Shown here piece by piece: positions 16,074 through 55,380 of a DNA stretch of 64,000 bases (position 1 is the first letter of the stretch; every line of letters begins with the position of its first letter). Source of the DNA: Caulobacter sp. SLTY (lineage in GTDB: Bacteria > Pseudomonadota > Alphaproteobacteria > Caulobacterales > Caulobacteraceae); contig NZ_JAAALA010000019.1 in assembly GCF_009905535.1 (NCBI RefSeq), positions 1 to 64,000 of the forward strand, in the 5' to 3' direction. Position numbers and translations under genes: made by a program. The notes beneath the pieces are model-generated. The model was not told the DNA's origin. It made no database searches and saw only the letters and a program-made list of their open reading frames with translations.

Positions 16074-16210
16074 CCGTCATCCCGGAAAGCGCGTAGCGCT
16101 TATCCGGGACCCAGGGGCTGCAGCGCACCGGCCGGAAAGCTGTGTTCGATAGCGAGATCATGCACCCCTGGGTCCCGGATAGCCCGCTTCGCGGACTTCC
16201 GGGATGACGG
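16074..16210. repeat. Nested inverted-repeat element
   Basis: The outer arms CCGTCATCCCGGAA (16074-16087) and its complement (16197-16210) enclose a second perfect 17-bp pair (TATCCGGGACCCAGGGG at 16101-16117 against 16165-16181). Outer and inner arms are separated by a CGCTTCGCG-like mini-hairpin. It fills the rarD to serine-hydrolase gap and shares its design with the elements at 3519 and 29789. Confidence 0.85.
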
Positions 16211-47150: not shown

Positions 47151-48152
47151 TTAGACAAGAGCCCGCGCGGCCTGTTCGAAGGCCCTTGCGGCCGGGCTTT
47201 GTGAGCCGGCGGCGGTCAGCGGCGTCCCTGCGTCGCCGGCCTCTCGCAGGGGGATTTCCAGCGGCACCTCGGCCAGGAGGGGAACGGAGAGGCGCTCCGC
47301 CTCCGCCGCCGCCCCGCCTTGGCCGAAGATGGGCAGGCGGGCGCCGTCGGGCCCTTCAAACCAGGCCATGTTCTCGATCACGCCCAAGATCGGCGTGCCG
47401 GTCTTGGCGAACATCGCGGCGGCGCGGCGGGCGTCGATCAGGGCGATTTCCTGGGGCGTGGAGACCAGCACCACGCCGTCGATGCCGAGCTTCTGAACCA
47501 GGGTCAGGTGGATGTCGCCGGTGCCGGGAGGCAGGTCGACGATCAGCAGGTCGAGGGGCGCCTCGGCGGTGCCCCAGCGAACGTCCTGCACCATCTGGCG
47601 CACGGCGCTGGAGGCCATCGGGCCGCGCCAGATCATGGGTGAGCCCTCGGCAACCATGAAGCCGATGCTCATCAGCTTCACCCCGTGGGCGAACAGGGGC
47701 TCCAGCTTGCCATCGACGAAGCTGGGCTCGTCGGCGATGCCCATCATCTTCGGCGCCGAGGGGCCATAGACATCCGCGTCGAGCAGCCCGACCTTCAATC
47801 CCAGCCTGGCGAGGGCGCAGGCCAGGTTGACCGAGACGGTGGACTTGCCCACCCCGCCCTTGCCGCTGGCCACGGCGATGACCCGCTTCACATGGTCCGG
47901 CCGCGCGGCCTCGGACGCCTTGGGCTCGGCAGCGTGATCGGGGCTGAGGCGGGCGGTCTTGCGGGGCCGAGCGCCGGCGGGCGGGGCCTCGGCGGTCAGC
48001 ACCACCTGGGCGCGGGTCACGCCCGGCAGGCCCGCCAGAACTTTTTCGGCCGCCTCACGGACGGCGGCGTAGGAGGGCGCGGCGGCGGCGAACCCCAGGG
48101 TCCGGGGTTGGCGTTGTCGTTCCAGGGCATGGACTAGGTGATGTTCCGTCAC
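47151..48152 (-). CDS. mrp: Mrp/ApbC-type Fe-S cluster carrier ATPase with displaced 5' end
   Basis: Mrp (ApbC) is a P-loop ATPase that carries [4Fe-4S] clusters to apoproteins. The ATPase body is intact: deviant Walker A SGKGGVGKSTVS near residue 96 of this frame, LLDADVYGPSAP, LIVDLPPGTGDIHLTL. The N-terminal MIP18/DUF59 domain is not intact. Only its last part (YAAVREAAEKVLAGLPGVTR) is present, and the DP-x-x-G-x-D-I segment is missing. The only in-frame start (GTG 48152) runs through a misplaced hflK start in another frame and has no ribosome-binding site. The true start appears to lie on the other strand at 48230. Confidence 0.85.
   Translation of the reverse strand: MTEHHLVHALERQRQPRTLGFAAAAPSYAAVREAAEKVLAGLPGVTRAQVVLTAEAPPAGARPRKTARLSPDHAAEPKASEAARPDHVKRVIAVASGKGGVGKSTVSVNLACALARLGLKVGLLDADVYGPSAPKMMGIADEPSFVDGKLEPLFAHGVKLMSIGFMVAEGSPMIWRGPMASSAVRQMVQDVRWGTAEAPLDLLIVDLPPGTGDIHLTLVQKLGIDGVVLVSTPQEIALIDARRAAAMFAKTGTPILGVIENMAWFEGPDGARLPIFGQGGAAAEAERLSVPLLAEVPLEIPLREAGDAGTPLTAAGSQSPAARAFEQAARALV
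48017..48130 (-). pseudogene. Displaced hflK 5' end (MPWNDNANPGPWGSPPP) in front of mrp
   Basis: From an ATG at 48130 on the minus strand the frame reads MPWNDNANPGPWGSPPP, the hallmark start of alphaproteobacterial HflK. After about 48082 it runs out of frame into the mrp body and stops at a TGA (48019-48017), giving a 37-residue chimera. It should belong to the plus-strand hflK gene beginning some 150 bases away. Confidence 0.75.
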
Positions 48153-48229
48153 TTGAGGGCGGGCCGGTTGATAACCGGGCTGTAGAAGCGGATATGAGGC
48201 GGCACAGTCGTCAACGCAAGCTGAACCGA

Positions 48230-48313
48230 ATGACCGATGCGCCCGCCCTCGACCGTGAAACCGTGCTCGCCGCCCCCAGTCGAACGGCGAAGGCGTCGAC
48301 CTCAATGAGGTGA
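48230..48313 (+). pseudogene. Displaced mrp-like 5' end in front of hflK
   Basis: From an ATG at 48230 the plus strand reads MTDAPALDRETVLAA, which looks like the first helix of an Mrp/ApbC DUF59 domain. It then continues out of frame into hflK sequence and stops at 48311-48313. That TGA overlaps the GTG (48310) of the hflK remainder, which could allow coupled re-initiation. Confidence 0.6.
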
Positions 48314-49293
48314 TCGAGCGCTGGACCGCCCGCCTGCGCGGCCTGCTGGGTGGCGGCGGCGGCCAGCCCGGCGGCCAGGAAGAGGCCATCCGGCGCTACG
48401 CTCCGCTCGTCGGCGGCGCCCTGGTGGCCCTCTACTTCTTCTCCGGGATCATCATTGTCAGCGCCAAGCAGGAGGCCGTGGTCACCACCTTCGGCGCCTA
48501 CACGCGCAGCTACGGCCCCGGCATCGGCTATCACCTGCCGATCTTCGAGCGGTCGCAGCTGGTCGATATCACCACCATCAACGAGACCACCGTCGGCGGT
48601 CAGAAGGCCGGTTCGGTGCCCGCCGAAAGCCTGATGCTGACGGGCGACGAGAACATCGTCGACCTGGCCTTCGCGGTGAACTGGCGCGTATCCGACCCGC
48701 GCAAGTTCCTGTTCAACATCGACAACACCCGCGACACCGTGAAGGCGGTGGCCGAGAGCGCCATGCGCGAAGTGGTCGGCCGCAGCCAGCTGGACCCGAT
48801 CATCTCCACCGGTCGCGGCAAGGTCCAAGCCGACGCCCAGTCGCTGATGCAGCGCATCCTCGATGACTATGACGCCGGGGTGATCATCGACAGCGTGCAG
48901 ATCCGCGACGCCCAGCCGCCGCAACAGGTCATCGCCGCCTTCCAGGACGTGGCCACGGCCGGTCAGAACTTCCAAGCCCGGATCAACGAGGCCGGCGGCC
49001 AGGCGGCGAAAATCCGCCAGGAGGCCCTCGGCTACAAGGCCCAGGTGGTCAATGAGGCGCGAGGCGAGGCCGAGCGCTTCAACCAGATCTATGAGCAGTA
49101 CCGGCTGGCCCCGGGCGTGACCCGCGAGCGGCTGTACATCGAAACCATGGAACGGGTTCTGGCCAAGTCCAACAAGGTGATCATCGACGGCAAGGGGGTG
49201 ACCGCGCCCATCGTTCTGTCGCCCGACGCCTTCAAGCCACGAAATCCGACCCCGACGACGGCAGCGCCGCGCGCGCCGGGAGCCGCCCAATGA
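48310..49293 (+). CDS. hflK: HflK, modulator of FtsH protease (5' end displaced)
   Basis: HflK is an SPFH-domain inner-membrane protein that assembles with HflC around FtsH. Present are the transmembrane helix (APLVGGALVALYFFSGIIIV, near residue 31), the SPFH core (EAVVTTFGAYTRSYGPGIGY, LTGDENIVDLAFAVNWRVSD) and RERLYIETMERVLAKSNKVI. Coding sense extends upstream in frame (QSNGEGVDLNE, 48277-48309) with no start before a TGA at 48256. The native start and Pro-rich N-terminus are therefore not in place; GTG 48310 is the first usable start. It overlaps hflC by four bases. Confidence 0.88.
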   Translation: MIERWTARLRGLLGGGGGQPGGQEEAIRRYAPLVGGALVALYFFSGIIIVSAKQEAVVTTFGAYTRSYGPGIGYHLPIFERSQLVDITTINETTVGGQKAGSVPAESLMLTGDENIVDLAFAVNWRVSDPRKFLFNIDNTRDTVKAVAESAMREVVGRSQLDPIISTGRGKVQADAQSLMQRILDDYDAGVIIDSVQIRDAQPPQQVIAAFQDVATAGQNFQARINEAGGQAAKIRQEALGYKAQVVNEARGEAERFNQIYEQYRLAPGVTRERLYIETMERVLAKSNKVIIDGKGVTAPIVLSPDAFKPRNPTPTTAAPRAPGAAQ

Positions 49294-50150
49294 ACCGCAA
49301 TACCCTGACCCTTGGCGCCATTGCCGTCGGCGCGCTGCTGCTGGTGGCCAGCCAGACCTTCTATGTGCTCGACCAGACCCAGCAGGCGGTCGTTATCCAG
49401 CTGGGTAAGGTGGTGCGGGTGGTTAACTCGCCGGCCAACCCTGGCCCTGGCCTGCAGGCCAAGTGGCCGTTCACCGAAAGCATCGTGGTCTTCGACAAGC
49501 GAAACCAGATGCTGGAGTCGAACCAGGAAGAGATCATCGCCGGCAACCAGGAACGGCTGATGGTCGACGCCTTCATCCGATACCGGATCCGCGATCCCTA
49601 CCGCTACTTCACCGCCCTGGGGAACGCCGAGACGGCCCGCAGCCGACTGGAACAGCGCCTCAACGCCGCCCTGCGCCAGGCGTTGGGCACGGCCAATTCG
49701 GAGGACATCATCTCGTCACGCCGCTCGGAGTTGATGAAGATCATCCAAGCCAACCTGATCTCTCAGGCCAACAGTTCGCGCCTGGGCATCGAGATCATCG
49801 ACGTGCGGATCAAGCGCGCCGACCTGCCGGTGGCCAACCAGGAAGCCGTCTACGAGCGGATGCAGACCGCCCGCCAGCAGGAAGCCACCCGCATCCGCGC
49901 CGAGGGCGAACAGCGCCGCCGCGAGATCGTCGCCCAGGCGACGGGCGACGCCGAGCGCATCCGAGGTGAGGGCGACGCCGAACGGGCCAAGCTGTTCGCC
50001 GACAGCTTCGGCAAGGACGCGAACTTCGCCGCCTTCTACCGTTCAATGCGCGCCTATGAGACCAGCATGGGCCAGGGCGACGCCACCCTGGTGCTGTCGC
50101 CCGACAGCGACTTCTTCAAGTACTTCGGTCGCGGCCCCAACGCCCAGTAG
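49290..50150 (+). CDS. hflC: HflC, modulator of FtsH protease
   Basis: The 286-residue SPFH-family partner of HflK. It has an N-terminal signal anchor (LTLGAIAVGALLLVASQTFY), VLDQTQQAVVIQLGKVVRVV, NQERLMVDAFIRYRIRDPYR (in parts), GIEIIDVRIKRADLP, then a coiled-coil with ERMQTARQQEATRIRAEGEQ. The ending is SPDSDFFKYFGRG. The ATG at 49290 overlaps the hflK TGA. Its stop abuts the convergent serB gene. Confidence 0.95.
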   Translation: MNRNTLTLGAIAVGALLLVASQTFYVLDQTQQAVVIQLGKVVRVVNSPANPGPGLQAKWPFTESIVVFDKRNQMLESNQEEIIAGNQERLMVDAFIRYRIRDPYRYFTALGNAETARSRLEQRLNAALRQALGTANSEDIISSRRSELMKIIQANLISQANSSRLGIEIIDVRIKRADLPVANQEAVYERMQTARQQEATRIRAEGEQRRREIVAQATGDAERIRGEGDAERAKLFADSFGKDANFAAFYRSMRAYETSMGQGDATLVLSPDSDFFKYFGRGPNAQ

Positions 50151-51026: not shown

Positions 51027-51948
51027 GGAGCCCCGCATCTGGCTGATCGCCGGACCCACCGCAAGCGGCAAGTCCGCCCTGGCCCTGCGCCTGGCCCGAG
51101 AAATCGGTGGGGAGATCGTCAACGCCGACGCCCTGCAGCTTTACGCAGACCTGCGCACCCTGAGCGCGAGGCCCTCGCCGGAGGAGGAGGCGCAGGCGCC
51201 GCATCATCTGTTCGGGACCGTCGATGGCGCCGAAGGTTGGAGTGTCGGGCGCTGGTTGCGGGCGGGGAGCGAGCTGATCGAGGCGATCAATGGCCGGGGC
51301 CGACCGGCCATTCTGGTTGGCGGGACGGGGCTCTATTTCAAGGCCCTGACCCAGGGTCTGGCCGAGGTGCCTCCAGTTCCGGCGGCGGTGCGGGAGGCCG
51401 AGGAGGCGCGGTTCGAGGCGGAGGGCGAGGCGGCGGCGCGCGACCGGCTGCGGATGGCCGACCCGGCAGCGGAGGCGCGAATCGCGCCGGGCGACCGACT
51501 CCGGCTGACCAGGGCGCTTGAGGTGCTGGCCGCCACAGGCAAGCCGCTGAGCGACTGGCAAGCCGAGACCCAGGGTCTGCTGGCGCCGGGCGACTGGCGC
51601 GGCCTGGCGCTGGAGCCGCCGCGCGAGGCCGTTTATGCCCGCTGCGACGCGCGGCTGGCCGGGATGCTGCAGGCTGGTGCTTTGGACGAGGTCCGGAAGC
51701 TGACAGCGCGGGCGCTGGATCCGCGCCTGCCGGTGATGAAGGCGGTGGGGGTGAGGGAGTTCGCCTCCCACCTGGCCGGTGAAATGCCCCTCGACAAAGC
51801 GTTGGACGACGCCCGACGGGAGACGCGCCGGTACGCTAAGCGACAGCTGACCTGGCTGCGTAACCAGATGGCCAACTGGTCGCGCATCAACGCGGTCGAG
51901 CCCGAGGCGCAGTGGTTACAATTGGAACAAACTTGCGCAAATCCCTGA
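51025..51948 (+). CDS. miaA: tRNA dimethylallyltransferase
   Basis: MiaA adds the isopentenyl group to A37 of UNN-reading tRNAs. The 307-residue product has the P-loop [16 protein letters not shown] near residue 8, the substrate segment [20 protein letters not shown] (in parts), [16 protein letters not shown] near 93 and [13 protein letters not shown] near the end. Start candidates are ATG 51025 and ATG 51013. Either overlaps the 5' end of serB, so the two promoters lie inside each other's coding sequence. Confidence 0.95.
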
Positions 51949-52005
51949 CTTGACCCGGCTTTGCGCGCGTGGCATGAAGAAAATCGTGGATTTGGAGCAA
52001 ACTTC

Positions 52006-52035
52006 GTGCGCAACGTGAGACTTGTACTTACCTAG
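52006..52035 (+). CDS. ilvBN leader peptide (MRNVRLVLT)
   Basis: A nine-codon reading frame GTG-CGC-AAC-GTG-AGA-CTT-GTA-CTT-ACC-TAG lies 110 bases before ilvB, with GGAG upstream. It encodes two Val (one internal plus GTA) and two Leu, using CTT and GTA, which are rare in this GC-rich sequence. A hairpin and a terminator follow, so ribosome stalling on Val/Leu codons can control read-through. Attenuation of ilvBN is known in Caulobacter crescentus. Confidence 0.72.
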   Translation: MRNVRLVLT

Positions 52036-52108
52036 CGGCCTCGCGTGGCGTGTCCCCAGCACGCCGCTCAAGGCCGCATGCGCCAAAGGCCCCCCGCGGG
52101 CCTTTTTT
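52036..52108 (+). terminator. ilvBN attenuator: pause hairpin and terminator
   Basis: A first hairpin pairs GCGGCCT (52035-52041) with AGGCCGC downstream, enclosing GGCGTG-TCCCCAG-CACGCC. The terminator is AAAGGCCC (52085-52092), loop CCCGC, GGGCCTTT (52098-52105) with a TTTTTT run to 52108. The GGCC blocks of the first hairpin could pair with those of the terminator and so form an antiterminator. Confidence 0.75.
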
Positions 52109-52144
52109 GTTGCCCGAACGACCCCTGCCTCCCGAGACCGACAG

Positions 52145-55002: not shown

Positions 55003-55039
55003 CGCCCCTTTCGTTCGGCGGCCCGAGCGCCTATATTGA

Positions 55040-55380
55040 AGGTGTTCGGGCTTGCTCGGACTATGGAGATAAACGCGCACGTAATAAGCGGACTGGACCC
55101 GGGTGCGATTCCCGGCGGCTCCACCAATCTCTCCCGAGTTATCACGGGAAGCGCGGGGCCGATCAGCATCGACAGACGTGTAAAGGTGATTGCTTTCTCT
55201 CGGCTTGACCCACCGTTTCGGGTCTTTAACTAACTGCGAACGATAACTTCGCTGAAGAGTTTGCTGTCGCCGCGTAATGCGGTGCCGGCGAATTCGCCTT
55301 AAAGCCCTGCGGGTTTAGCACCTTCAGGCGGGGCCCGGGGGGAGCCTGGCAACAGAATCTCCCCACCTTTCAAGTCTAGG
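55040..55380 (+). ncRNA. ssrA: Transfer-messenger RNA, permuted two-piece form
   Basis: The gene is circularly permuted as in other Alphaproteobacteria. The acceptor piece comes first: T-arm CCGGG-TGCGATT-CCCGG (55099-55115), then acceptor strand CGGCTCC and ACCA ending at 55126. After a spacer, the coding piece begins near 55155 with GGGGCCG, which pairs with CGGCTCC. The tag frame at 55236-55277 reads ANDNFAEEFAVAA-stop, giving the Caulobacter tag AANDNFAEEFAVAA with the charged Ala. A TATATT -10 box lies at 55032-55037. The outer ends are estimates. Bases 55381-55585 hold no recognised gene. Confidence 0.93.

Follow-up and report, generated by a model that had tools for sequence, protein, structure and literature searches.

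Background

Chen et al. 2020 (PMC7111523) count local assembly errors among the factors that limit metagenome-assembled genomes and consider that every assembler makes them on occasion. According to the part of PMC7954356 that we use, prokaryotes too have yielded examples of local template switching, and the corresponding part of PMC8755829 describes microinversions bounded by short inverted repeats in primates.

The window analysed here, 64,000 nucleotides in all, is bases 1–64000 of contig C11 (88,094 bp) of the source genome, a draft of 4,082,691 bp in 87 contigs. A preliminary description made from the letters of the window alone had claimed that mrp and hflK exchanged their 5′ ends through a small inversion, and this is borne out by alignments with eleven loci from nine genomes. 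As read from the assembled sequence, the exchange by inversion, together with loss on both sides, is limited to one assembly among those that are readable. We favour a local misassembly in the draft genome as its explanation, with a probability of roughly 0.58, in a weighing of explanations whose priors are our own judgement.

The mrp–hflK locus

The features of the region are collected in Table 1. When the translated region was searched against Pfam, as the preliminary description had suggested, both gene bodies matched their families: the mrp body is a NUBPL-type P-loop ATPase (PF10609, ParA, 300.8 bits against a cut-off of 27.1), and the hflK body carries the Band_7/SPFH domain (PF01145, 106.6 bits, cut-off 23.6). 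The name HflK is one that we take from the start peptide and the gene order, and the next gene downstream is presumably hflC-like, judging from its position and sequence.

Table 1. Features of the mrp–hflK region in window coordinates.
Feature	Position	Strand	Basis
mrp/apbC body; normal start and about 36 FeS_assembly_P (DUF59) codons gone	47151..48079	-	ORF, Pfam, comparison with relatives
Stranded hflK start MPWNDNANPGPWGSPPP, out of frame into mrp	48017..48130	-	translation and codon frames
Segment inverted by comparison with relatives, comprising the 5′ end of hflK, the divergent promoter region and the 5′ end of mrp	48080..48275		alignments with relatives
Left junction, GC-rich; two L010 alignments overlap by 15 bp with mismatches	48080..48094		alignment with L010
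Stranded mrp start MTDAPALDRETVLAA, out of frame into hflK	48230..48313	+	translation and ORF
Right junction CGCCGCCC; two L010 alignments overlap by 8 bp	48268..48275		alignment with L010
hflK body (Band_7/SPFH); proline-rich N-terminus gone	48276..49293	+	ORF, Pfam, comparison with relatives
hflC-like gene, open, downstream of hflK	49290..50150	+	ORF; inside stretch collinear with relatives

Neither gene begins normally. The mrp frame is open through the whole flipped segment and reaches an ATG at 48389 within hflK (a 412-aa ORF), so mrp has no normal start, as had been noticed from the sequence. The hflK ORF runs from GTG 48310 to 49293; in the same frame upstream there is a TGA at 48256 and then no ATG, GTG or TTG before GTG 48310, again in agreement with the first reading.

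The missing starts lie on the opposite strands. From ATG 48130 the minus strand encodes MPWNDNANPGPWGSPPPRPPTPPSVRRPKKFWRACRA, which ends at a stop at 48017 after 37 residues and leads into mrp; from ATG 48230 the plus strand encodes MTDAPALDRETVLAAPSRTAKASTSMR, which ends at a stop at 48313 after 27 residues and leads into hflK. Translation thus agrees with the preliminary identification of the former as the HflK start and the latter as an Mrp-like start. In both cases the stop of the leader overlaps a GTG in the frame of the gene that follows, in the form GTGA: the TGA of the hflK leader (48019–48017) overlaps an in-frame mrp GTG (48020–48018), and the TGA of the mrp leader overlaps the hflK-frame GTG 48310 (48310–48313). 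The MPWN... start of HflK is not joined in frame to the hflK body here, whereas the two are joined in 41 of 41 readable relatives. A scan of positions 47950–48450 for promoters and terminators found none.

The stranded hflK start shows zero amino acid changes relative to the common form, and its 51 bases are identical to those of locus L010 at 51 of 51 positions and to those of L037 at 50 of 51, while the stranded Mrp start diverges from its relatives about as much as these diverge from one another. The hflK start therefore lacks the decay expected of an old rearrangement, and the event is either very recent or an artefact.

Orientation and occurrence in relatives

In 11 of 11 loci from nine genomes, all or part of 48080–48275 aligns in the orientation opposite to that of the two gene bodies. 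The same opposite-strand orientation was found in the five genomes that were compared along the whole contig, and in the rows compared by eye, among the matches listed, the middle segment again ran counter to the gene bodies. The searches of the genus covered 61 genomes (the source included) with a 2,901-bp query and 75 genomes with a 401-bp query.

The alignment with relatives that had been proposed alongside the first reading was extended, by script, to 107 locus or genome groups, which were made by hand and in which one genome may count twice; mrp, the hflK start and the hflK body were all readable in 41 of these, the other 66 being incomplete owing to the lack of an mrp match in the locus, the lack of a start peptide fitting the pattern, or a contig end. 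All 41 are normal, in that each hflK start continues into the body of its own gene and mrp is divergent; the exchanged arrangement occurs in none. The surveyed relatives are other species, with best genus DNA matches of 78–82% identity among the matches listed; most of the nearest loci that carry a name come from metagenome bins of Caulobacter or Caulobacteraceae, with the first labelled Brevundimonas. A uniformly normal set of relatives fits a misassembly and is also expected of a recent real event.

Lost sequence and junctions

The preliminary description had stated that a simple flip does not fully restore the frames and that sequence was also lost, and flanking sequence is indeed missing on both sides in comparison with six relatives. 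On the mrp side 100–175 bp are gone, and on the hflK side 75–98 bp of the proline-rich N-terminus, both figures varying with the ends of the local alignments. The Mrp protein lacks about 36 residues, much of the FeS_assembly_P (DUF59) domain, for which Pfam gives 14.3 bits, under the cut-off of 23.5 and far from the 60.1 bits of relative L010; the earlier claim that part of DUF59 is absent therefore holds. The hflK loss has no such Pfam counterpart, since no Pfam family matched residues 1–125 of the intact HflK of L010. A second copy of the missing Mrp part was not found in the source genome when a 136-residue Mrp fragment of L012 was used as the query: the fragment matches only from residue 52 on, at the mrp locus, with an extra weak match on contig C4 (E 0.079, residues 52–133).

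At the junctions the two L010 alignments overlap as given in Table 1; those with the remaining five relatives overlap less or not at all. When positions are drawn at random from the two 5′ regions, exact matches of 8 bp or longer occur with a frequency of 0–0.0021 in the six relatives. The 8-bp inverted repeat first noticed at the two junctions (48084–48091 and 48267–48274) is present, as part of an 11-nt repeat with 91% complementarity (48081–48091 and 48267–48277). With 13 inverted pairs reported for the same 501 bp, this repeat is not exceptional.

Origin of the rearrangement

Three origins had been offered at the outset, namely a misassembly, a fixed inversion-deletion and an invertible switch; the first two both remain under consideration, and the third proved unsupported. 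The weighing is delicate, as the sequence expected from a true rearrangement hardly differs from that expected from an error of assembly.

Under the misassembly reading, the assembly would have dropped the stretches flanking the mrp–hflK start region and kept the intervening island of about 196 bp, attached the wrong way round through short GC-rich overlaps (8 bp on the right and up to 15 imperfectly matching bp on the left); the divergent mrp–hflK pair would then be normal in the living cell. We infer that the cause was assembly rather than mutation, and favour this reading because the arrangement appears in one draft only, breaks two conserved genes simultaneously, lacks signs of decay and involves very GC-rich sequence. 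The GC content of the lost hflK part is 0.76–0.83 in the six relatives, that of the lost mrp part 0.66–0.73, and that of the window 0.68. Of 36 contig ends near hflK, collected from 80 loci, 4 lie in a 300-bp stretch at the beginning of the hflK body, against an expectation of 1.68 (P = 0.09). The excess is not significant, the 300-bp stretch was picked after the ends had been seen, and one of the four, L039, is the same record as genome G040. In genome G021 the mrp and hflK bodies lie on separate contigs. Together, GC content and contig ends are no more than suggestive of a spot that is hard to assemble.

In five other drafts (G004, G016, G020, G026 and G028) the mrp match starts 100–222 bp from the contig start, among the matches listed, so the 3′ end of mrp is perhaps another difficult spot.

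Some observations count against a misassembly. The GC content of the lost mrp part is ordinary and gives no obvious reason for a drop in coverage. An assembler would also be expected to demand overlaps longer than 8–15 bp. The assembly moreover looks good elsewhere, which argues somewhat against an error here. Against five relatives the 88-kb contig is collinear, with 48080–48275 as the only inverted patch and otherwise just matches of 22–29 bp. Four contigs were compared with one relative, the single-contig genome G019, and no other single-copy inverted patch was found in the roughly 268 kb aligned of 442,869 bp; the lengths aligned in the collinear chain were 81,761 of 160,000 for C67, 67,700 of 94,775 for C9, 50,855 of 100,000 for C4 and 67,511 of 88,094 for C11. 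The source contigs examined hold no runs of N. Among 172 gene comparisons with G019 there were 23 short or split matches: in 13 a higher-scoring overlapping G019 frame was covered to at least 97% in the source genome, one is hflK, and nine are partial, with the best frame covered to 29–85%. Apart from these nine, the 172 comparisons show no other broken gene. If the arrangement is an assembly error, the genome wrongly shows two conserved genes as broken, and the locus would illustrate clearly how a short inverted island can go unmarked by N.

Candidates and features of other kinds were also recorded. Inverted matches to G019 on C9 at 49000–49071 and 51947–52117 were dropped, since both fall within repeats with matches at many sites in G019; the repeat at 51947–52117 does so on both strands. 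An imperfect palindrome at window positions 16076–16208 is a 92% match to another place in G019 and looks like a dispersed palindromic repeat. A frame change near contig position 71544 turned out to belong to the stretch before an open, presumably ilvC-like gene, and not to a broken gene. That stretch, C11 71545–71634 (L163 7545–7634), lies beyond the window and is not part of the gene; it is conserved enough between species to be detected by protein comparison, has no match in Rfam at gathering scores, and is possibly a leader RNA. Within the window, at 55005–55367 on the plus strand, an ordinary alphaproteobacterial permuted tmRNA was recognised (240.4 bits, Rfam alpha_tmRNA).

The rival that survives best is a real and very recent deletion-inversion-deletion by short-range template switching, which we consider plausible but less likely than a misassembly. 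In a single switch during replication, the new strand would leave its template in mrp, copy the opposite strand backwards, beginning at the start of hflK and ending at that of mrp, and return inside hflK, truncating both genes and exchanging their promoters. In a four-point model the order of the points would be 1-3-2-4, and the fragments L→1, 2→3 (reversed) and 4→R do fit in that order against the six relatives, but an assembly error would look alike. Template switching gains further from junctions that lie in similar GC-rich sequence, from the rarity at random of exact runs as long as that at the right junction, and from the good appearance of the rest of the assembly. It has to contend with the restriction to one draft, the undecayed state of the stranded hflK end and the simultaneous breakage of two conserved genes. 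The 8-bp overlap, besides, cannot be shown for the lost ancestor, and since the longest perfect matches close to the corresponding junction sites within the six relatives reach only 4–7 bp, microhomology in that ancestor can only be presumed. If real, the locus would show neatly how a single error of replication can, in nature, exchange the promoters of two bacterial genes and truncate both genes at once.

A further version of this reading would have both genes expressed as shortened proteins from the exchanged promoters. Ribosomes would restart at the in-frame GTGs (48310 and 48020) after the leader ORFs stop, and the products would be an HflK without its proline-rich tail and an Mrp without DUF59, with promoters swapped. 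The two GTGA overlaps are what suggests it; by our estimate such overlaps are common by chance in GC-rich DNA, and we therefore rate the restart reading as improbable.

Far less credible is an invertible promoter switch, or inverton, serving mrp and hflK alternately. The segment, which carries the divergent start region, has an inverted repeat at its ends, but turning it back restores neither gene: both stay incomplete, with the flanks gone on both sides. The repeat is short and unremarkable among the 13 pairs of its 501-bp stretch, and the flipped form occurs in 0 of 41 readable relatives. Least probable of all, to the point of being hardly worth entertaining, is an ordinary lineage-specific arrangement with exchanged but intact proteins, for which we found no supporting evidence and which is contradicted by start peptides that run out of frame and end after a few dozen residues and by the normal state of every readable relative.

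Comparison with known systems

Invertons and other phase-variable promoters, as treated in the part of PMC11892184 considered here, likewise have a promoter segment between inverted repeats; they differ from this locus, where the flanks are deleted and there is no sign of two states among the relatives. The microinversions of PMC8755829 resemble it in the short inverted repeats at their edges, but in the portion of that work drawn on here they measure 17–33 nt and the majority are pure inversions, whereas the patch described above spans about 196 nt and is accompanied by losses on either side.

The four-point template-switch model of PMC7954356 comes closer, in that a reverse-complemented patch replaces a longer stretch and the order 1-3-2-4 can be placed. 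The part of that study used here concerns great ape genomes, where the majority patterns reported create inverted repeats; in our case the ancestor is lost.

The comparison with local assembly errors brings us back to the reading that we prefer. In the sections of PMC7111523 on which we draw, the tell-tale of such errors is sequence without read support, whereas the present case is known from the assembled sequence alone, and inverted islands of about 196 bp are not among the errors described in those sections. What the mrp–hflK locus shares with the errors described there is that it is small, confined to one assembly, destructive of conserved genes and set in GC-rich sequence.
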